A model generated the notes under the pieces. It was not told the origin of the DNA and did no database searches. It was given only the letters and a program-made list of their open reading frames with translations. Source: a virus. From it: a DNA stretch of 22,189 nucleotides. This document shows positions 3,001 through 21,260 of the stretch, one piece after another. How positions within the stretch are numbered: the stretch's first letter is position 1; each line of letters starts with the position of its first letter. Both the position numbers and the translations under genes were made by a program. The stretch is taken from positions 1 to 22,189 of the IMG/VR virus record IMGVR_UViG_3300038397_000066; one strand, given 5' to 3'.

Positions 3001-5435
3001 GCGAGATCAGCCTGTGTGGCAGGAGTGGCTCGCTCTGTTCCAAGCAGATCGGCAATCTGATTGTCAATCTGCACAACTGATTGGACAAAATTATCCTGCT
3101 GCTGCGGGTCTTTGATGCCGTAGCTGTCGGCCACAAGGTTGGCTTTGCGCTCCAGCAGACGGTTAAGGACGGTGCGGTCTGTGGGGGTTAGGCTTGTTCC
3201 TTCCAGCTGTTCCTCGGCCAGTTGCCCCAGCTGTTGCGAGTTTCTTGGGGCGCGGGTGTCTCTACCGCGAAGGGCGGGAGGAACACCGGCCTCGTCCTCT
3301 GCGGCAGTTCTTTCCGTGTCCGCCTCCCTCTCCAGACCGAGACGCATCTCGGTGTCGGATGTGATGACATCTGCTTGCAACTTCGCAGAGATCAGCTCGG
3401 CTTCCAACTGTGCTCGATCTCGCTCTACCTTTATCTCCGCCGCTCTAGCTTCCGCCTCGTCTTGAATCTTACGGCTTTCGCCCAGCTCCGAGAAAGGCGT
3501 CTTTGCGGATTGCCGACGTATCTGTTCAGCTTTGTTGAGGAACTCGCGAATGCCAGCACCCTCTGGTGCATAGCGCAGTTCGTTTACCATCTCCTGTGTG
3601 ATATTCAGACCGCTGTACTTCAAGTCTTCAACCGTGATACCCAGCTTCTCCGCAATAAATTGCTTGTCTTCGTCGCTAATAACTTCCGGCGTTGTGGCCA
3701 GCTCGGCTTCAGCTGTGCGCTGTTTAGCCAAGTCCAGCTGGCTTTGGTACAGATCGTCCAGCTTGCCCAACTCTGACAGCTTTTTGGTAAATTCTTTGTA
3801 TCGCTTTATCCGCGCTTGCGTTTTCTTCGACACAGCTTTAAGGGCCATCTCCCGAGCCGCATCGCGGGCCTGTTCTTCAGACTCAAAAGCGCCAACCACC
3901 TCGCCTTTGCGAAGAACAGCCCACTCTTCAAATTCTGGATGCTTCTCAACTTCAAATTGCGACAACTCATTGTACGCTTCCTGCTCCTCAATAAAGCGAT
4001 CCACCGTTGCTTGGTCGGCGTGCCGCAAGCCGGACGGAACCGTTGAATCGTCTGGCCCAACGGAATCCTCGTAGCGATCCCACCAGAGGGGGAGCGTTCC
4101 TTTTTCCTGTGCATCTTGAACAACTTTCTCTCGTCCGCTCTCTGGGAACACGGGCTTTGTCTCGCCTTCCGCTGGCAGAGGAATAGCCAAAGGTTCCAGA
4201 GAGCCGACCTCTTCCCCTTCCGGCAGCACAAGTGATGCTGCGTTTCTCGCGTCAAGCCTCGCAGCTGTGGCTGGAGCGACAGATCGTATCGTCTCTCGAC
4301 GTGCAGCTTCGCGTGCGGCGGCTGTCACGTCATCGTGCGTGTCCAGCTTTTGAGCCATACCCAAGCCACCGCCCAAGCCAGCCCCGACAACCCAAGACTT
4401 CCACGCTTCCTGACCAGCTTGTTCAAGAGTCACGGTTGGGTCGAAAGAGTTTCTTGCGATAAAGTATTCGCCGATAAAGTTGGCCGGAGCCTCCTCAATC
4501 GTTCCCTCGATAAGCGCACCTTTCGTGGCCGCTTTGAGCTTTAGGCCGAGTTTGCCAGAGAGAGTCTTGACGCCATCACGAAATCCGGCCGAACGAACCG
4601 CCGTGCGAAGCGCCTCGATGTCGGTGGCCCCTGTTTTTTTGGCCAGCATCCCTCCAGCCTTTGTCAGCAGCATATCAACTGATGCCTGACCTAAAGCCGG
4701 AATCATTGCCGACTGCGCAGCCTCCTCGGCGGACAGCCCTTGTTCCTCGTAGGCGCTTCTTGCCCGATGATAGGTTGCTCCAAACGACTGAAGGCCAACT
4801 GTTGGGATAGCTGCGCCAACCCCAAGCGGGCCGGTGGCGATGATCGGAAGCAAGCTGGCTGCACCAGAGCCGAAAGCCACACCCCAGCTTTCTGGGTCAG
4901 CACCACGGTCAAATTTTAGGTCGCCGACGTTAACATTTACATCTCCTACTAGGGGAACATCAAAACCAAATAACCCTTGGGAAAATTGTGATAAGGTGTT
5001 ATCCCCCTCAAGCCCTTTGGCATATTCGCCAGTTTCCAGAACAGCTGCTCCCATCTTCGCTGACTGGTCTGCCATCCCAGCCAAGATGTCCGCTGCGCCG
5101 TCCCGCATCGACTTGGCTGTTTCTGGGGCGAACAGTTTCATCCCCAGCTGCAACGGGGATAAATCTGACAGCGACATATCGCCAACTATCGGCCTGTGGT
5201 ATGCCTCACCAGCGCCGTACATAAACGTGCCGATGTTGTAGATGCCGCTTACAAAACCTTTGCCTAAATTTTCACCAAAGCCAGCTTCGCTCTCTGGCTC
5301 AACTGGTGGGGGTTGGGGTCGTTCCGTGGCAACTCCCGCAGTAGGTCGGCTTTCCCAGCCGTCCTCCCACGGGTTTACAGCTGCGCTAGTGCTTCCACTA
5401 CTCTCCCACCCGTCTTCCCAAGGATTTTTTGGCAT
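1..5435 (-). CDS. Giant polyvalent-type virion (ejection) protein, 3' end beyond window
   Basis: One uninterrupted frame runs from ATG 5435-5433 to the window edge (1811 codons, no stop), so the C-terminus is missing. The start overlaps the stop of the upstream gene as TAATG. The N-terminus holds a tandem NPWEDGWES (residues 4-12 and 21-29), similar to short NPW/NPF motifs opening other large phage virion proteins. Hydrophobic, Gly/Ala-rich stretches lie near residues 180-215 and 350-360, and a long charged helical part near 480-760. Residues about 1110-1285 look like sigma-70 region 2 followed by region 4 (see findings). Later segments (about 1387-1410, and VGFDPERHSYFYN near 1500) resemble domains recurrent in large polyvalent phage proteins. 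Family knowledge: such proteins are packaged and enter the cell with the DNA. It is last in the tail/ejection operon, as large internal proteins often are. No catalytic domain was identified with certainty. Confidence 0.85.
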   Translation of the reverse strand, partial: MPKNPWEDGWESSGSTSAAVNPWEDGWESRPTAGVATERPQPPPVEPESEAGFGENLGKGFVSGIYNIGTFMYGAGEAYHRPIVGDMSLSDLSPLQLGMKLFAPETAKSMRDGAADILAGMADQSAKMGAAVLETGEYAKGLEGDNTLSQFSQGLFGFDVPLVGDVNVNVGDLKFDRGADPESWGVAFGSGAASLLPIIATGPLGVGAAIPTVGLQSFGATYHRARSAYEEQGLSAEEAAQSAMIPALGQASVDMLLTKAGGMLAKKTGATDIEALRTAVRSAGFRDGVKTLSGKLGLKLKAATKGALIEGTIEEAPANFIGEYFIARNSFDPTVTLEQAGQEAWKSWVVGAGLGGGLGMAQKLDTHDDVTAAAREAARRETIRSVAPATAARLDARNAASLVLPEGEEVGSLEPLAIPLPAEGETKPVFPESGREKVVQDAQEKGTLPLWWDRYEDSVGPDDSTVPSGLRHADQATVDRFIEEQEAYNELSQFEVEKHPEFEEWAVLRKGEVVGAFESEEQARDAAREMALKAVSKKTQARIKRYKEFTKKLSELGKLDDLYQSQLDLAKQRTAEAELATTPEVISDEDKQFIAEKLGITVEDLKYSGLNITQEMVNELRYAPEGAGIREFLNKAEQIRRQSAKTPFSELGESRKIQDEAEARAAEIKVERDRAQLEAELISAKLQADVITSDTEMRLGLEREADTERTAAEDEAGVPPALRGRDTRAPRNSQQLGQLAEEQLEGTSLTPTDRTVLNRLLERKANLVADSYGIKDPQQQDNFVQSVVQIDNQIADLLGTERATPATQADLASMQSTFEDVAVEPAPTEPEPEPVTTMKIGDTEIKVVNRSSGISGVASAARPSITAQQMEPALLKQVEAALVKISKRFGTLLNLSEIQLTKLAGGAGVASIARSGVTDAILVDIEKLMSSTSNKKFSLEKALEEELIHNLDGQALRAEYARLITSGQLSPTVDVRSFIESKYNDIYNNMTADEKAAARVLYGNDFIDGVHMAQEFVRQLIQKRHTKTITEESYRGKPIRKLLDIFSRMFSRIGLSGPLQAHVANVESFLERTYRLESKETTTAETKQRLKDEKAARKQSVGKKAKDQETAYSRIVEAVAKFSHTESGKWLATERGQDYGARVVDETYDAWLKRYNSDDDFRNADVPPSAYFWTVATRKAINLAQSEFGTEKRGKDIAFTSADTLKDEGVEPATFTPAGESMYSTIVSYNDEIGLTVQERVAVQSFLLNTDNRTFAGQLNVSEGRASQIKSSMVAKLRKAADTNPELLALLVESAQNPQNFIAAVKIASAADPNIRPDRVAGLVEAQRKYQASKQTRADWNELNAAIDEFKAIAKDYPQPTMETLLSRGQILSALKADGAKRAQAYFDRQDSGQTIVGEVIDVRIDIPAYNKTGEYVVTFHGTADGKTAVVGHDSFVHLTGFGELGKVEFIEGKDTKKINIATGVKGGRGNKSSFARARGAVASTTVIPDVTGAEWTQVGFDPERHSYFYNRANPAMRVTRGTEAVSIGNTVFVRNAEMDDAFDAGVAFAADPNAPSNNLPPSYKKIAKFLTEEERVKMRVNTAQDIVDVFNSLPPDQNFITAARLGEAKRGWYKRAGVALRQMFGGDTDQFVALLAAHSPQQSVLENLRMSLSTWAEWINAGRPSSDAELLAIYKKVGGASLGARVGNANRALRGEALINLSGFKVESFRKNLLGDLSASTNDTWMALFGGVSQSIFGTKSGYLGFTAKMRRVAKKLGWEPAEVQETVWSFFKTLYEKQTEGKRAGDLIGGITDREVSATPEFYEYLIND

Positions 5436-9127: not shown

Positions 9128-11584
9128 TTATACGCAATCGCCCACCGTACCACAGTCACCATACGGCTCTTCCACGATTGGGTAGGCGTGCAGTCTGAAA
9201 GTCTTTATTCGTGCGTGGCCAACCCACTCGATGCGTGAGGAGAACTCGTAACCGTTTCGCATTGGCACACCGTTAGTAGCCTCACAATCGTCAGCTGGTT
9301 GTGGTAGCCGCATTCTTGATCGGTACTGTGGCTTGTAATTCTTTAGTGTGAGGCACGAACCAGCGACAGGGTTGCACGTCTCCGCTTTCGCGCACTCTGT
9401 CCAGCTGTTCCAATCCACCCAAGCTGGGTACTGGTTTGGCTTGTAGCGAATAGTGAAGTCCACCTCGCCACGAAGGTCATCGACCCACATCTCCCCGTAC
9501 TCAAGCTGCTTCATCTCGAGCGGGTTTTCAAAGCTGTAGCTGGGTGTTTCGATATAGCAACCGATGCGGCTACTGTCCGCGTCCTTTATCCCGTCTTTTG
9601 TCAGCTCCCACAGCTGGATGTTGCAGCTGCTATTCAAGTGGAATACGAAACACCGTTCCTCCGCCTTGATCTCGGCGGTAAGTATTTGCAAGAAGTTCAA
9701 CCCTGTCCAAAGACCCTCCCAAGCTGGCGGCATCTTATCGCCCGTTCCTCCAACGGTGTCAAAGTCAAGTGGGGCAATGCCCCGAAAATACACCCCTTGC
9801 GATGTGTTCTGCGGCGTGACCGTTGTGAGCAGGCGGTTATCGAAAAGAACAACGCTGGTGCGCTGCGCTATCTCGTGATCCTTCTCATCGCGCAGTACCG
9901 GCCCGATCTCGCGACTCACGGGAATCTGCCCGTACTCCTGCCACTCGCGGCGGCTGGAGATGTAGCTGCGTATTCCGTCTGGCGCACGGTAGAACATATC
10001 ACCGTTGACCAAAGCGCAGCTGCGGTCGCTGACGGAGCCGTAGTTGATTGCCACGATACGGACTGTGGGATACTCCAGATTCTTCCAGCTGTCGCGGCTG
10101 GTCGGCACGTTGACAGCAAACACAGCGCGAGACGTGTGAACCAGCAGCTCGCCTTGTCCGAGGCTTGAGTCTGGCTGGTTCATAAACCGCATTGCCGTGA
10201 TGTCGCCGGTATCCAGCGGGACAGCGAACGCGCCGCCCTCTGCGATGTAGGTGTTCTCTGTAAATTTAATAACGTCGGTCGGGCCACCAACGATGTCGCC
10301 AGCAACAAACTCACGCCCACGCGCTACCCACAACCGACCATTCCCGTAGGCCATCACTTTGCCGGTGGGAACCTCGTCGCCGGACGGGTTGGCTCTGCGG
10401 GAGGTTGCGCCGTCAAAGATGATAGCGGCTGACTCACCGTTTTGTATGATGAGATAATGCTCGGCCTGCTGGAAGTAGGACACCTCGATGTCCGATGCGT
10501 TCGGATCGTAGATAGTCTCCCCAAGGCTGTTAACACCGTTGGTTGGGGTGATGTCCTGCACCATCCCCGTCTCCGTGTTGATCTTATAGATGTGGCCACC
10601 TATGGAGGTGACTAGGTAACTGTTTTTCCCGTGGTTATAGCTGTACGCACCTTGGAACCGATCTGCCTCGAAGGCTGTCTTTATCCTTTCATCCGACTCG
10701 TCGATGGTGGCCAGCTCGAACATCGTGGTGGACACCTCGCCTGTGCCAGTTGACCCCGTGTCGCCAACTGCTAAAATCTCAACAAGATGCGTGCCTCCAT
10801 CTAGGTCAATGTTTGCTTGGCTGGACGAGTTTGTGATTATCCTCAACTCCCCGCCGTTCAAATTGATTGTATAAGTTTTGACCCCACTTTCAACCACTTG
10901 CTGGTCGCCAGCTGCGTTTGTTAGATACCAGTCGTTTGAGTTTGCGAAGTTAGAACCGGCTTCCAGTTTGATTGTAACTATATCAAGATTGTTTGGGTTC
11001 AACCATTTAATACCAATGCCAGATGCGTACACGTTGGGGCCGGTCGATACCTTATTAGACATATCCAGCACATTGCTGGCAAGTACGCCAACGTCTAACT
11101 GATCCGCCATAGCTGACCCTACCGACTCCCAATCATCATATGCTGCGTTAAATGCCGCCTTGTCCGCAGCGGCTATACCCCAGCTTGCAGCGTTAGTCTC
11201 GTTGTTCTGGTTGCCATCGACTGCTCCTCCACCGCTGGTTGCACCCCAGCTTGTTGGGGTTGTTCCTGTCGCTGTAAAAACAGTTCCAACATTATTATTA
11301 GCTGCCCCAATGTTGGTGACATCAAAGCTTGTGCCGGTTTTTGTGATCTTATATTTCTTACCGACAACAAGCGTTCCGCCGCTAATCAGCTTGAACGATC
11401 TGTCGAACTCAAGAGGAATGTTAACGAAGGAGGGGCGCGTCTTTGCGTAGCCGCCGCGCATTGTCACGTTGCCAGCGAAGGAGGCTTGGTTGCGGGCCAG
11501 CAAACTAGGCGACCGACCAGCGTCCACCCCGCGTTCCAGCGTAAGGAACCCGTCGCTAATCCGCTGGCGGTCGATTACTGGCAT
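9128..11584 (-). CDS. Large tail structural protein, putative tail nozzle/stub with beta-propeller-like body
   Basis: An 818-residue protein with ATG overlapping the stop of the upstream fibre gene (TAATG). The opening (DGFLTLERGVDAGRSPSLLARNQ, then a GGYAKTRPSF segment) is typical of tail proteins that begin with a DGGI/GVSP-type anchor and an RP(G/S)F strand. From about residue 288 onward come repeated beta-strand units (SYLVTSIGGHIYKIN; HYLIIQNG; GKVMAYGNGRLWVARGREFV; CALVNGDMFYRAPDGIRSYI; TSVVLFDNRLLTT) consistent with a propeller. The C-terminal part carries several cysteines, ending GDCGTVGDCV. By position and architecture it is the likely distal tail tube or nozzle, comparable to tail tubular protein B of podoviruses. 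Residues about 67-287 look like an insertion between the anchor and the propeller. Confidence 0.75.
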   Translation of the reverse strand: MPVIDRQRISDGFLTLERGVDAGRSPSLLARNQASFAGNVTMRGGYAKTRPSFVNIPLEFDRSFKLISGGTLVVGKKYKITKTGTSFDVTNIGAANNNVGTVFTATGTTPTSWGATSGGGAVDGNQNNETNAASWGIAAADKAAFNAAYDDWESVGSAMADQLDVGVLASNVLDMSNKVSTGPNVYASGIGIKWLNPNNLDIVTIKLEAGSNFANSNDWYLTNAAGDQQVVESGVKTYTINLNGGELRIITNSSSQANIDLDGGTHLVEILAVGDTGSTGTGEVSTTMFELATIDESDERIKTAFEADRFQGAYSYNHGKNSYLVTSIGGHIYKINTETGMVQDITPTNGVNSLGETIYDPNASDIEVSYFQQAEHYLIIQNGESAAIIFDGATSRRANPSGDEVPTGKVMAYGNGRLWVARGREFVAGDIVGGPTDVIKFTENTYIAEGGAFAVPLDTGDITAMRFMNQPDSSLGQGELLVHTSRAVFAVNVPTSRDSWKNLEYPTVRIVAINYGSVSDRSCALVNGDMFYRAPDGIRSYISSRREWQEYGQIPVSREIGPVLRDEKDHEIAQRTSVVLFDNRLLTTVTPQNTSQGVYFRGIAPLDFDTVGGTGDKMPPAWEGLWTGLNFLQILTAEIKAEERCFVFHLNSSCNIQLWELTKDGIKDADSSRIGCYIETPSYSFENPLEMKQLEYGEMWVDDLRGEVDFTIRYKPNQYPAWVDWNSWTECAKAETCNPVAGSCLTLKNYKPQYRSRMRLPQPADDCEATNGVPMRNGYEFSSRIEWVGHARIKTFRLHAYPIVEEPYGDCGTVGDCV

Positions 11585-12627
11585 TAGGCGAAGATGGCAA
11601 AAGTAAACTCTTTGGTCGTGGCTGTGGCGGGTAACTGAACAGTCATCGCCGACGTGGTAATCGAGGCGACATATAAGCCAACGCCGTTGGCGTCATTTGG
11701 TGTCAGTATAGCCTTTGGGAACGATGAGGTTATGCTCGTGGTGAAATTAACCGTAACAACGTGTGTGCTCAACGTAGGCACTCCCGCACAGTTCGTGGGT
11801 GTTCCGCTGTAAGCTACAGAGGGACTGCCCGAGGTTGTGTAGATCACACGCCCCATCGCCTCCATATTAACATCGCTGGCAGTGACGGTGGCCCATTGCG
11901 GAGCGTTTGACCCCCCTTGCTCAAGCCGCTGCCCTGTGGCTCCCTTTGCCAGCTTAACCCACGCGCTGCCGTTCCAGTAGGCTATGTCTCCAGCTGCCCC
12001 GCCTGCGTTAGCTATGCCCGCCAGAGGCAACTGGCCGCTGGTTGTGACAGTGTTAAGCGCGAGTGTGCCGCCAAGATCACTGTACTGGACAGTATCCCAC
12101 TCTAGCCCAGTTGCGGCGCTGCTGTTCGCCCCGAGGAACTTGTTGTTGGCCCCAACTGACAAGGCGATATTCTGGGTGCTGTAGGTGGCCAGACCTCCTT
12201 TAGCGAGTGTTACTAGGCTTGACCCAGACGTGCCGGTCGAGCCGGTATCACCCTTAACTCCAGCGGCGCTGATAGTGTTTGAGGCGGTGACGGTAGTCCC
12301 GACAGCCACGTTCGTCGGTGTTGCGTAGAGGTTTTTGACCGTGATTGATGTGGCAGACGCTTTAGCTGTAACCTCAAAATAACCACCACCGCTCACATAC
12401 AAAGTCTGACCGACAGACATCCAGCTTGAGTCTCCCACCGTGACCGCAACCGTCGAGTTGACGGCTGGCGTTACGAAGTCTGCACTAACCGTTGTGTAGG
12501 CGCTTGACCCATTCGTACCGTTTGATCCAGCTGCGCCAGCTGCGCCAGTTGCGCCAGCTACGTTTGTGGTGGAAGTGGCACAAGTTGTTTCGCAGCAGTC
12601 GGTGTTTTGATTTAAGGTAATAGCCAT
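11584..12627 (-). CDS. Collagen-like tail fibre / adhesin
   Basis: A 347-residue protein. I place the start at ATG 12627-12625. The open frame continues upstream to 12705, but that would enter the palindromic promoter region and the terminase start. It has a Cys-rich head (DCCETTC, 10-16) and a first collagen-like Gly-X-Y run (about 25-40). A beta domain (about 43-100) carries the pattern SWMSVGQTLYVSGGGYFEV, common in phage fibre proteins. A second Gly-X-Y run (GVKGDTGSTGTSG, 123-135) follows, then AYWNGSAWVKLAKGATGQRL (216-235) and a beta-rich C-terminal domain. It is probably a trimer reaching the host surface. As first gene of the leftward block it is expressed from the divergent region. 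No clear Shine-Dalgarno precedes it. Confidence 0.8.
   Translation of the reverse strand: MAITLNQNTDCCETTCATSTTNVAGATGAAGAAGSNGTNGSSAYTTVSADFVTPAVNSTVAVTVGDSSWMSVGQTLYVSGGGYFEVTAKASATSITVKNLYATPTNVAVGTTVTASNTISAAGVKGDTGSTGTSGSSLVTLAKGGLATYSTQNIALSVGANNKFLGANSSAATGLEWDTVQYSDLGGTLALNTVTTSGQLPLAGIANAGGAAGDIAYWNGSAWVKLAKGATGQRLEQGGSNAPQWATVTASDVNMEAMGRVIYTTSGSPSVAYSGTPTNCAGVPTLSTHVVTVNFTTSITSSFPKAILTPNDANGVGLYVASITTSAMTVQLPATATTKEFTFAIFA
12522..12557. repeat. 9-base tandem repeat encoding the collagen-like run
   Basis: Four consecutive 9-base units are visible on the plus strand: ttgatccag, ctgcgccag, ctgcgccag, ttgcgccag. They encode Gly-X-Y triplets of the collagen-like segment in the fibre gene on the minus strand. 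Such short in-frame repeats can gain or lose units and change fibre length. Confidence 0.75.
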
Positions 12628-12713
12628 CGTTTGACAGTTAGCAAAAGTTGTGAGGTATATCCCCCGTAGGGGGAGTATAGCCTCACTATACCTTCTTATT
12701 GTCAAACGGTTTG
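12628..12713. promoter_or_regulatory. Symmetric palindromic divergent promoter/operator region
   Basis: This is the only space between the leftward fibre gene and the rightward terminase gene. Outer arms CGTTTGACA (12628-12636) and TGTCAAACG (12700-12708) are perfect 9-base inverted repeats. Each contains TTGACA, the sigma-70 -35 consensus, pointing inward. Exactly 13 bases inside each arm lies a hairpin (12650-12686): GTGAGG-TATA-T-CCCCC, loop GTA, returning with two single-base bulges to CCTCAC. Candidate -10 boxes lie within the hairpin: TATATC at 12656 for rightward transcription, and TATACT (12679-12674) for leftward. Spacers are 19-20 bases, longer than ideal. I read it as overlapping divergent promoters with an operator. 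The sequence symmetry is certain, but the function is inferred. Confidence 0.65.
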
Positions 12714-14387
12714 ATTAAGCACAAATATGGCTTGGCGTTTGACGTGCAACTAAACGAGATCGAGTTGGAGTTGTACGCATTCAGAATCAACCACTCGCCG
12801 GATCGTGGTGGGCTGGGTGCATTCCGCCACTTTAAGAACGTGGTCGCTCACCTGTGGCCAAAGATGATCTGGAATCCGTGGTTGGAGAAGCAGATCGAGA
12901 GCCTCTGCGAGAACCAATGGGTGTGCTGGGCGGGGTGCGGTGCAAGCGGGAAGACCTACGCTGCAAGCCTTTACTCTATGGTTTATTTCCTAGCTGCCCC
13001 GCTCCAGACCTCGATCATCCTCACCTCCACCACCGCAAAGATGATACGGAAGAGGGCGTGGCCGGTCATCCAAGACCTTTACCGAACGTGCAAGGGCGGC
13101 TACCCCTCACATATGGTGGACAGCAAGACCACTTTGCAGGCGATTCGTGGCGACGATAAGCACGCGATATTCGCCATCCCCGTGCTGGACGGGGCCACCT
13201 CGAAGGCGGTTGCCAACATACAAGGCATACGATCCCCGCGAACTATGGTGATTGTAGACGAAGCCACCGACACGCCCGAGGCGGCGTTCGAGGCGTGCTC
13301 AAACCTCCAGAAGGGAACCACCGAGTTCAAGTTTCTGGCAATAGGGAACCCACACAGCAAGTTCGACCAGCACGGACGGTTCGCCACCCCAAAGAGCGGG
13401 TGGTCGGGTATCAGTATTGAGGATGAGGAGTGGGAGACAGAGCGCGGTGTGTGCCTACGCTTCGACGGGTTGAGGTCGCCTAACGTGCTGGCGGGTAAAA
13501 CGAAGTACAGCTTCCTCATATCGGACGATCAAGTGAGGCAGGCGCAGAAGTATGACGGCGAGGATAGCCCCAAGTTCTGGAAGTACACGAGAGGGATGTG
13601 GTCGCCCGAGGGGGTGTGCAAAACGGTGTTAAGCGAAAACTTGGTCGAGAAGTATAGAGTGATGTTTCCTGCTGTTTTTGTGAAAAAGAGCCACATGATG
13701 GCCGGTTTAGACCCTGCTTTTAACGGGGGCGACAGGTGCGTCATCCAGCTGGGACGTTACGGAGACTTTGAAAACGGGAAGATGGGCATATCGCTGGAAA
13801 AAAACGAGATCATCCAGATTGACGCGAAAAGCAGCGAGCCGGTTCACTTCCAGATTGCCAGCCGAGTGCAGGCCATCTGTGAGGAGAACAATGTCAAGCC
13901 GCAGCACCTAGCCATAGACGCCACCGGCGAGGGAGGAGGGCTGTGCGATATACTGGCCAAGACGTGGAACCCGTCCATCCAGCGGGTGGAGTTCGGGGGG
14001 AAAGCCAGCGACCGCCCCGTCAGCCCCGAGGATCACCGCAAGAGCAGCGAGGTGTATGCCAACAAAGTGACCGAGCTTTGGTTCAGCGTGCGCCAATGGG
14101 TTATCAATGAGCAGCTGCGTGGAATGCACCACGAGGCGGTGATCGAGTTCTGTGCAAGGGTGTTCGACGATAAAAAACGTATGACAATCATCGAAAGAAA
14201 GGTTGATATGAAGGCTCGCACCGGCAAGTCGCCAGACTTTGCGGACGCGATCACGCTGGTAGTGGAGATGGCCCGCAGGCTAGGCGGGTATGCCTCGGCA
14301 ACACGCCAACGCGGCGGGGTGTCCAGCTGGGATCAGATGGTTAAGGATTGTGACAGTATTTATCACGATACATTCGCTGTAGTGTGA
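12699..14387 (+). CDS. Terminase large subunit (packaging ATPase/nuclease)
   Basis: 562 residues if begun at TTG 12699. No early ATG exists, and TTG 12711 or 12729 are alternatives that would free the promoter arm. It shows the two-domain terminase plan. ATPase: Walker A GCGASGKT (79-86), Walker B MVIVDEAT (183-190, Asp187/Glu188), and the coupling-type segment LAIGNP (213-218). RNase H-like nuclease: GLDPAFNGGD (336-345, Asp338), LAIDATGEGGG (404-414, Asp408) and SPDFADAI (511-518, Asp513/Asp516), giving the expected acidic cluster. It translocates phage DNA into the prohead through the portal and cuts it. It is first gene of the rightward block. The small subunit is not in the window. The weak start context (no Shine-Dalgarno, non-ATG) is unusual for a virion-block gene. 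Confidence 0.93.
   Translation: MSNGLIKHKYGLAFDVQLNEIELELYAFRINHSPDRGGLGAFRHFKNVVAHLWPKMIWNPWLEKQIESLCENQWVCWAGCGASGKTYAASLYSMVYFLAAPLQTSIILTSTTAKMIRKRAWPVIQDLYRTCKGGYPSHMVDSKTTLQAIRGDDKHAIFAIPVLDGATSKAVANIQGIRSPRTMVIVDEATDTPEAAFEACSNLQKGTTEFKFLAIGNPHSKFDQHGRFATPKSGWSGISIEDEEWETERGVCLRFDGLRSPNVLAGKTKYSFLISDDQVRQAQKYDGEDSPKFWKYTRGMWSPEGVCKTVLSENLVEKYRVMFPAVFVKKSHMMAGLDPAFNGGDRCVIQLGRYGDFENGKMGISLEKNEIIQIDAKSSEPVHFQIASRVQAICEENNVKPQHLAIDATGEGGGLCDILAKTWNPSIQRVEFGGKASDRPVSPEDHRKSSEVYANKVTELWFSVRQWVINEQLRGMHHEAVIEFCARVFDDKKRMTIIERKVDMKARTGKSPDFADAITLVVEMARRLGGYASATRQRGGVSSWDQMVKDCDSIYHDTFAVV
12701..12713 (-). promoter_or_regulatory. 13-base element CAAACCGTTTGAC, copy 1
   Basis: On the minus strand 12713-12701 reads CAAACCGTTTGAC. 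It includes the palindrome CAAAC-C-GTTTG, and its right end forms part of the leftward -35 box. The identical 13 bases occur on the plus strand at 19731-19743 in the capsid-gene leader. A dimeric regulator site or a phage promoter element is the likely meaning. Confidence 0.5.
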
Positions 14388-14414: not shown

Positions 14415-15401
14415 ATGAAAAGGTTGGCTAGTGCTGGCAAGGGTTTCACCTTGATTGAGTTGCTGGTGGTGATTGCAATTATAGCGATCTTGGCGGCGTT
14501 GTTATTGCCGTCGTTAGCGTCAGCGCGTCAGACGGGGTGGCAGGCACAATGCCTTAACAACCACAGGCAGCTAAATTTGGCTATGACCGAGTTCGCTGGC
14601 GACCATCACGACAGGTTCACATACGCATCGGCGTGGCACAATGAACCGAGCGCAAGATGGGCTTGGGTGGCAGACTCAATGAGTGGCTCAAGCGCGTGGT
14701 CAACTTGGGCGCAAACTGATAGGGCGCTGTTCTGGAGTCCGCTAAAACCCTACACGGGAATGCGGATATTTAGATGCCCCGGTGATAAGTCCACCGTCAA
14801 GTGGACGGGCCGGTGGGAGGCAGTTGACCCAGAAGAAAACGACAAGACATTTAATCAGCAACTTCGTCCGCGCAGTTACTCAATGAATATATTCGTTGGT
14901 GGCTGGAGCGGCTGGCCTTTCTTGTACGACTCACAATTCAAGACGCATCATCTTTATTCTGACGTTGCCTCTCCAAGCCGGTTGTTCAGTTTCATTGAGA
15001 TGCCAGCCGCCAGTATTAACTCTGGTAATTTCCGAGTCGTACCACTCACGCCGAGGGGCGACGAGATGTTCTCCCAAGATTGGCCGGGAATTTACCACAA
15101 TGGGGGCAGCGTAGTTTCGTTTGTCGATAGTCACGTTGAATTTAGGAGATGGCTTGAGGAGGACACCAAGTATATTCCGCTGGGAGCTGGTTCACCAACT
15201 TCAATGGATTCCCGAATGGTTTCAAAGGACAACCGCGATCTGGCGTGGTTGCGGGATCGCGCCACGGTGTCTGACCCTAACACGCACGAATGGTTTGCCT
15301 TTATGGGGGGTATCGGGAGATACCACCGAGATGGCAATGTGCGCACAGTCGGCGGCAAAAAGTATGTTTCTTGGGCGTGGTTTTGGAACAACAGCTGGTG
15401 A
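14415..15401 (+). CDS. Type IV pilin-like / pseudopilin protein with prepilin cleavage-methylation signal
   Basis: A 328-residue protein. The N-terminus is a textbook class III (prepilin peptidase) signal: a short basic leader ending KG10, then F11TLIE15[11 protein letters not shown] and a hydrophobic helix to about residue 32. Cleavage would fall between Gly10 and Phe11, and Glu15 is the conserved +5 glutamate. The body matches the large pseudopilin families of Verrucomicrobiota, Planctomycetota and Lentisphaerota: ARQ...[18 protein letters not shown] (37-63), FRCPGD (119-124), RSYSMN (153-158), [14 protein letters not shown] (191-204) and [17 protein letters not shown] (227-243, DSH where relatives often have DGH). 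It should be an inner-membrane-anchored, periplasm-facing or pilus-incorporated protein. Its neighbours are terminase and a zinc-binding phage protein in the same direction. Leucine codons TTG/TTA are more frequent here than in flanking genes, which hints at acquisition from a host. Confidence 0.92.
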
Positions 15402-19811: not shown

Positions 19812-19929
19812 AGCCTTATAGCGAGTGGCAATCGCACCGGCCCAATCGGGACTGGCCGACCGAACAAGAGGCGTATGCGCCCCCTTCCGTGTGGGAGTGT
19901 GGTGTTGCGTCATTAGTTAGAACCCTTTT

Positions 19930-19939
19930 AAGGAAAGGA
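19930..19939 (+). promoter_or_regulatory. Strong ribosome binding site that fixes the capsid start
   Basis: AAGGAAAGGA lies 6 bases before ATG 19946. It is by far the best Shine-Dalgarno in the window and decides the start against the longer GTG-initiated frame at 19889. It fits the high output expected of a capsid gene. Confidence 0.85.
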
Positions 19940-19945
19940 TTTATT

Positions 19946-21199
19946 ATGGCTTGTTCAAATGTATTTGATGCTTTTGCGATTGCTACCGAAAATCTTTCGG
20001 ATGAGGTTTTTCGCAATGCTTCTTATCGTTCTGTGTGGCTTAATGCTATTCCTCGCGGAACTTTTGAGACGGGTGTTGGAACCACCAAGACTACGTTCGC
20101 TATCGAGAATAGCGAACCAACGGATGACACGGAAACGTGGGCGGCAATCACCAACACCCAAGTGATTGGTGGTTCAGATGGCGGGGCCGGTGGCTCTTGT
20201 GCCAGCTCATACACCGATGTGGAAGTGGGCTACACCAGCCGCACTTATAACCCAGAGGAATTTGCCCTTCGCGGGCCAATTATCTGTAAGGATGATCTGA
20301 TTTACGATCATAACGTGGACACGTTCCTTCGCGCCTATGTGGAGGAAATGACCAAGCGAGCGCAGCGCAGCTGGGAGAAACGCTACGAGAATCTCTATAT
20401 GAAATTCGCGTCGAAAGTTCCAGCTGGCAACGGCTTGTCGATTGTGGACACAGAAGGAGAGGTTGAGGCGGTTGCCGTAGAGGCGGCCACTTCCACAGTC
20501 ACGCAGCAGCTGCTTGACCAGCTGGCGGTTGATCTGATTGACCGTGGCGCGACTAACCCAGACAGCAATGGCTGGATTGGTTATGGCGAAGCTGGCCCCG
20601 TGTTTCCGCTCTTGATCGGGCTGGAAGCTAGTCAGCAGCTTGCGCTGCACGGCGAACTGCGGAACGACTTCCGTCACGCCGAATCGGGTAAAGGATCAGC
20701 TTCCGAGCTGATGAGCAGATTGGGTGCTACGCGGCAGATTAAAAACTTCCGCCACATCCCTAACCTTCGCCCAGCTAGGTTCTCCTATGCATCCGGCAAA
20801 TACGTTCGCGTACCGCAGTATTTGATGAGTAGTGCCACGAAGGGCAAGAAGGCGGTATTGAACCCCTCTTGGCAGACAGCCGTTTATGAGGCTGCAATCA
20901 TACTGAACCCATCGGTGTTCACCTCGGAGATTGTTCCGCCGGTAAACTCTGCTGGTGGTGTCAGCTGGAATCCCACCACCTATATGGGTGAGTGGAAATG
21001 GGTCACAGGCGGCAGCAAGATTCAAGCTGCGAACGCGGACTGTGAAGACCCGCTGGATAAGCTGGGTCGGCATTATGCCGAGTTCAAGCACGCTGCTAGG
21101 CCCGAGTTCCCGAACCACGGGATGACGGTTATATTCAAGCGTGCCTGCGGCCTGACGAATGACATCACGATAAGTGATGTCACCGCCTGCACCGTTTAA
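19946..21199 (+). CDS. Major capsid protein
   Basis: A 417-residue protein begun at ATG 19946 after the strong ribosome site. It opens MACSNVFDAFAIATENLSDE and runs through alternating helix and strand: WLNAIPRGTF (31-40), EEFALRGPIICKDDLIYDHN (104-123), then a long helix DTFLRAYVEEMTKRAQRSWE (125-144) like the spine helix of HK97-fold capsids. Later parts include GPVFPLLIGLEASQQL and a C-terminal beta region (YMGEWKWVTGG, HGMTVIFKRACGL). Position after the scaffold, between a leader and a strong terminator, supports major capsid protein. The HK97 fold is inferred; no signature motif proves it. Codons are smooth (GCT, GTT, CTT early), as in a highly expressed gene. Confidence 0.87.
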   Translation: MACSNVFDAFAIATENLSDEVFRNASYRSVWLNAIPRGTFETGVGTTKTTFAIENSEPTDDTETWAAITNTQVIGGSDGGAGGSCASSYTDVEVGYTSRTYNPEEFALRGPIICKDDLIYDHNVDTFLRAYVEEMTKRAQRSWEKRYENLYMKFASKVPAGNGLSIVDTEGEVEAVAVEAATSTVTQQLLDQLAVDLIDRGATNPDSNGWIGYGEAGPVFPLLIGLEASQQLALHGELRNDFRHAESGKGSASELMSRLGATRQIKNFRHIPNLRPARFSYASGKYVRVPQYLMSSATKGKKAVLNPSWQTAVYEAAIILNPSVFTSEIVPPVNSAGGVSWNPTTYMGEWKWVTGGSKIQAANADCEDPLDKLGRHYAEFKHAARPEFPNHGMTVIFKRACGLTNDITISDVTACTV

Positions 21200-21216
21200 G
21201 GCGTAGTAGTTTATAG

Positions 21217-21260
21217 CTGGTGGCTCGCTCCGTTATGCGAGCGGGCTGCCAGTTTTTTTT
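21217..21260 (+). terminator. Strong intrinsic terminator after the capsid gene
   Basis: GCTCGC (21223-21228) pairs with GCGAGC (21237-21242), enclosed by CTGG (21217-21220) and CCAG (21249-21252). Eight T (21253-21260) follow at once. It isolates the capsid transcript from the fibre genes downstream. Confidence 0.88.

Follow-up and report, generated by a model that had tools for sequence, protein, structure and literature searches.

A conserved symmetric element between the terminase and tail-side operons of an uncultivated phage family is a probable pair of overlapping divergent promoters

In the window, the 22,189-nucleotide stretch of viral DNA analyzed here, a symmetric element (12628–12708) takes up the whole space separating the start codons of two divergent genes. 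Judged from its sequence and that of its relatives, this element is probably an overlapping divergent promoter pair for a host sigma-70-type RNA polymerase, feeding two virion operons. Each outer arm would carry the -35 of one promoter, and each promoter would read inward over the center and exit via the opposite arm into the gene on that side, i.e., the rightward promoter (TTGACA-19-TATATC) into the terminase/head operon and the leftward promoter (TTGACA-20-TATACT) into the tail-side operon. The features of the element and its flanking genes are as follows.

11584–12627, minus strand: first gene of the leftward tail-side operon, matching phrog_31840 (function unknown)
12628–12636, plus strand: left arm CGTTTGACA, conserved in 36 related loci
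12631–12636, plus strand: rightward -35-like TTGACA, within the left arm
12650–12686: central hairpin of 16 pairs with GTA loop and two bulged Gs, covering both -10-like regions
12650–12665: left hairpin arm GTGAGGTATATCCCCC
12656–12661, plus strand: predicted rightward -10-like TATATC, 19 bp after TTGACA
12666–12668: hairpin loop GTA
near 12667, minus strand: predicted leftward transcription start
near 12668, plus strand: predicted rightward transcription start
12669–12686: right hairpin arm GGGGGAGTATAGCCTCAC
12674–12679, minus strand: predicted leftward -10-like TATACT, 20 bp after TTGACA
12700–12708: right arm TGTCAAACG, conserved, its minus strand reading CGTTTGACA
12705–12700, minus strand: leftward -35-like TTGACA, within the right arm
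12711–14387, plus strand: terminase large subunit (phrog_2, E 4e-17), first gene of the rightward operon

The arms, the loop and both hairpin arms were checked base by base. The check agreed with a preliminary description of this DNA, including the distance of exactly 13 nt between arm and hairpin on both sides; the 16-pair hairpin with its GTA loop is also present, although two unpaired Gs on its right side had been overlooked. The left arm abuts the ATG (12627) of the leftward gene, and the right arm ends two bases short of the terminase start codon. The latter is a conserved TTG (12711), which is retained in relatives in which the frame is broken upstream (L028). Coding across the gap was rejected, as the gap length differs by single bases among relatives.

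The symmetry had been regarded as too regular for chance. Perfect 9-base inverted repeats with 40–90 nt between arms occur 7 times in the window compared to a mean of 5.7 in shuffled windows; repeats of this type at such distances are therefore not rare, and a single sequence is too little to assess the arms. Of 2210 sampled 89-nt stretches of the window, 6 equal or surpass the element in raw RNA folding energy. It is conservation in relatives that sets the arms apart from chance, and the preliminary description had itself named conservation in close relatives as the property to check. A terminase query of IMG/VR yielded 59 loci, 36 of which carry the arms (L001–L034, L038 and L040; terminase identity 76–100%), these and the following counts being of related sequences and not of independent events. 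Synonymous sites are saturated in the more distant members of the 36, and in relatives with fourfold-degenerate sites 21–27% identical to the window, each arm retains 7–10 of 10 bases. Substitutions inside the nine arm bases are transitions. The arm motif typically occurs as one inward-facing pair per record with few additional single matches, and no further exact copy of it was found in the 48,854-base, apparently complete relative G017; with essentially just one pair, the arms were rejected as a genome-wide repeated late-promoter motif. When viral contigs were scanned for the arm pattern, the matches listed were mostly due to chance; among those listed and fetched, the element lies beside a terminase relative in L102 and L145, in addition to the re-found L016 and L038.

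Conservation of the arms extends past TTGACA (CGT before, G after) and is thus wider than a -35 requires, which counts against a promoter pair. It leads to an alternative that we consider unlikely, in which a phage repressor or activator of both operons recognizes the arms as its half-sites and TTGACA is partly coincidental or a sequence shared with the -35. Consistent with half-sites, conservation reaches beyond the hexamer to CGTTTGACAG, some changes are matched on both sides (L020, TGTTTGACA/TGTCAAACA; L028, TGCTTGACA/TGTCAAGCA), and G017 encodes an Arc-like regulator (L260 17806–18063, phrog_3887, E 2.5e-4). However, the distance between the arms varies between 67 and 75 bp in relatives and reaches about 116 bp in L028, without helical phasing, which argues against a rigid bridge and leaves the previously suggested dimeric regulator bridging the arms unsupported. 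Moreover, the sister clade described below keeps the TTGAC core alone, as a -35 would.

The position of the putative -10 elements argues for promoters. When similarity to TATAAT was anchored on the arms of 16 distinct relatives, it peaked at a single spacer in each direction, 19 bp rightward and 20 bp leftward, with a leftward TAT at spacer 20 in 10 of the 16. The -10s of L028 are 53 bp apart in comparison to 12 bp in the window, yet its TAT hexamers still lie 19 and 20 bp from the arms. Because the 19/20 spacing holds despite the longer central gap, the element is better read as two separate units, each made up of an arm and its -10, than as a single symmetric complex. Extra conserved positions (AAA.TT.TG.GG.AT....CCC) are found in the rightward unit. 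L026 and L032 lack a recognizable -10 at the expected spacing, and the -10 of L021 and L040 is weak.

The TTGACA of a sigma-70 promoter is exact on both sides in the window and conserved, but the -10 falls outside 16–18 bp in the window clade (19 bp on the plus and 20 bp on the minus strand), and a simple sigma-70 scan of the window with spacers of 16–18 bp did not list the site. The optimal spacer is 17 bp, and opposing polymerases cannot co-bind overlapping sites of this type (PMC12825309). Spacers of 19 and 20 bp count against the promoter pair and suggest weak basal activity or the need for an activator. The footprints of two polymerases bound here would share about 40 bp, so that a single polymerase at a time would occupy the site.

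An alignment-based search added relatives with 55–63% terminase identity, among them a sister clade (L213–L227) that retains the divergent gene order. Here the -10 does lie at 17–18 bp: L213–L217, L226 and L227 have sigma-70-type pairs in both directions, mostly with 17–18 bp spacers, while L220, L221, L223 and L225 have a leftward pair with weaker rightward partners. The pairs are of the form TTGAC-17/18-TAnnnn, and in the members that have them the leftward -35 core TTGAC again adjoins the terminase start codon. Taken singly, these promoters score modestly against shuffled sequences (p between 0.000 and about 0.3), and the argument from the sister clade therefore rests on position and repetition. 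Several of the contigs L214–L219 end 0.4–1.4 kb past the terminase start. At 56% identity, L036-type relatives have divergent ATGs 14 bp apart and no arms; at 37% identity, the gap of L042-type relatives measures 65 bp and has TGTCAAA only on its terminase side. The element itself is thus confined to the clade of the window. Taken together, conservation of the arms, the arm-to-10 distances, the gene order and the sigma-70-type pairs of the sister clade support the promoter pair; from these we infer transcription itself, the polymerase type, the start sites, mutual exclusion and regulation at the element.

Our search of the literature on divergent phage late promoters found nothing directly comparable. 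The late promoters PP and PQ of phage P2 are divergent and start at the terminase gene, as would the promoters described here. P2 late promoters require Ogr and a TGT-N12-ACA site near -55; in contrast, the sole TGT-N12-ACA near the element (12565–12582) is misplaced, and no match for an Ogr/Delta zinc-finger gene was found in 15 related records, mostly fragments, in which search the E. coli control matched. The promoters pR and pL of phage 186 are face-to-face and decide between the lytic and lysogenic pathways. The element resembles them in that two phage promoters are opposed over a short distance and could interfere, but both of its sides are virion operons.

Bacterial bidirectional promoters, at which one polymerase excludes the other (Warman, Grainger and others; PMC12825309, PMC10268837), share with the element a pseudo-symmetric site between two divergent genes, with the -35s on the outside and the -10s on the inside. 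They are defined by shared or overlapping -10s and starts 7–25 bp apart on opposite strands (PMC10268837). The window departs from this definition, with -10-like hexamers 12 bp apart and predicted starts about 1 bp apart, and sister-clade members such as L216, in which the two -10 hexamers overlap, are nearer to it.

Spacers of 19 and 20 bp are also a property of the activator-dependent MerR-type promoters (PMC1526738, PMC11049809), and to that extent the element resembles them. Unlike those promoters, its spacers show no clear palindrome by eye, and the same 15 records, mostly fragments, gave no match to a MerR gene (MerR_1), with the positive control matching. It is possible that a host MerR acts on the element. 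A search for sigma region 2 likewise gave no match in these 15 records, again mostly fragments, and a matching positive control, while neither the records nor the positive control matched in the search for a T7-type polymerase gene. We also entertain, as a rather improbable variant, a symmetric late-promoter pair that is out of register in both directions and stays silent unless a single factor, of the phage or the host, brings both into register, in which case the operons would be co-activated and polymerase would be shared in a fixed proportion.

The arms might alternatively pair in RNA, with a leader across the entire gap, folded by closure of the arms, controlling how the terminase and the leftward gene are translated from their adjoining starts. 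In an alignment of 17 sequences, all cells (100%) of the arm helix are paired on the plus strand, where the three single changes without a match on the other side all give G-U, and the arms abut both start codons of genes that show no Shine-Dalgarno sequence. Nevertheless, we regard RNA pairing as quite unlikely: it would require promoters inside the neighboring genes, all three wobble changes would fall on one strand by chance in 1 case out of 8, most predicted genes of the window (3–22189) have no obvious Shine-Dalgarno sequence either, and the outer arm pairs are not kept in the sister clade. No known RNA family reached the gathering score for the element.

The central hairpin had been proposed, as a hairpin or DNA cruciform, to be a working part of the element. 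As single-stranded DNA, the element segment folds at -19 kcal/mol (z = -5.7, with none of 200 shuffles as good), and the hairpin is strong in the window, L001–L004 and L019 and partial in L020. The gaps of the relatives repeatedly contain one inverted repeat or another (mean z of -2.5 on one strand and -2.8 on the other); in L028, a long inverted repeat, perfect and surrounding TTAG, lies in the longer gap between the -10s (3871–4020). In most relatives, however, the hairpin is lost or moved, and different inverted repeats lie elsewhere in the gap. The hairpin helices are paired in just 64–65% of cells of the 17-sequence alignment, and the consensus fold retains the outer arms only. We therefore rejected the hairpin or cruciform as a conserved part, and consider it extremely unlikely to be the switch itself. 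Being confined to close relatives, it is probably not the working part, and probably arises incidentally, because two similar -10 regions, GTGAGG-TATA-TCCCCC and GTGAGGCTATACTCCCCC, face each other. Of the promoter reading in the preliminary description, the arms as -35s, the -10s inside the hairpin and the position between terminase/head and tail-side operons are retained, while the roles given to the hairpin and to a dimer are not.

The genome setting agrees with a divergent promoter pair. In G017, the site has the terminase and head genes on one side (from 35.05 kb downward) and the tail-side genes on the other (35.06–47.6 kb), and genes run outward from it both ways, meeting near 8.4 kb, with the exception of a short segment with an integrase and the Arc-like regulator and of some small ORFs. 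This segment (L260 17806–19183) is an opposing one inside a long leftward block, and based on it the phage family may be temperate. The ends of the G017 contig (48,854 bases, classed linear) match over 174 bases with one mismatch, and the genome appears to be complete at about 48.7 kb. A switch between head and tail gene expression, as suggested previously, is not supported, as both operons apparently encode virion parts and joint expression is expected. Palindromes at a turning point of GC skew could also mark a replication origin or a packaging site, at which replication or DNA cutting starts. The skew does change sign at the site in the window, the cumulative skew of G017 is lowest near it, and the terminase gene adjoins it. 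We find this very unlikely: skew tracks gene direction and hence does not discriminate, the hairpin is unconserved, and the repeated ends of G017 lie about 13 kb away, giving no support for a cut at the element.

Other observations concern the operons and the host. The second rightward gene (14415–15401) encodes an N-terminal prepilin-type methylation motif (Pfam N_methyl, E 2e-7). Prepilin methylation motifs of this style are common in Planctomycetes and Verrucomicrobia, and the motif in a phage operon is a possible clue to the host. One relative is part of a short contig in a Planctomycetes MAG, which is weak host evidence. A strong intrinsic-terminator-like hairpin followed by a T run (21215–21254) lies right after a 436-aa gene (19889–21199).

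As a probable promoter pair, the element provides a concrete conserved candidate for the start point of late transcription in an uncultivated phage family. The two clades form a natural series, with spacers of 17–18 bp in one and 19/20 bp in its sister, in which the geometry changed and the gene order did not. Through competition between polymerases, a site of this type may determine how strongly head genes are expressed relative to tail genes.
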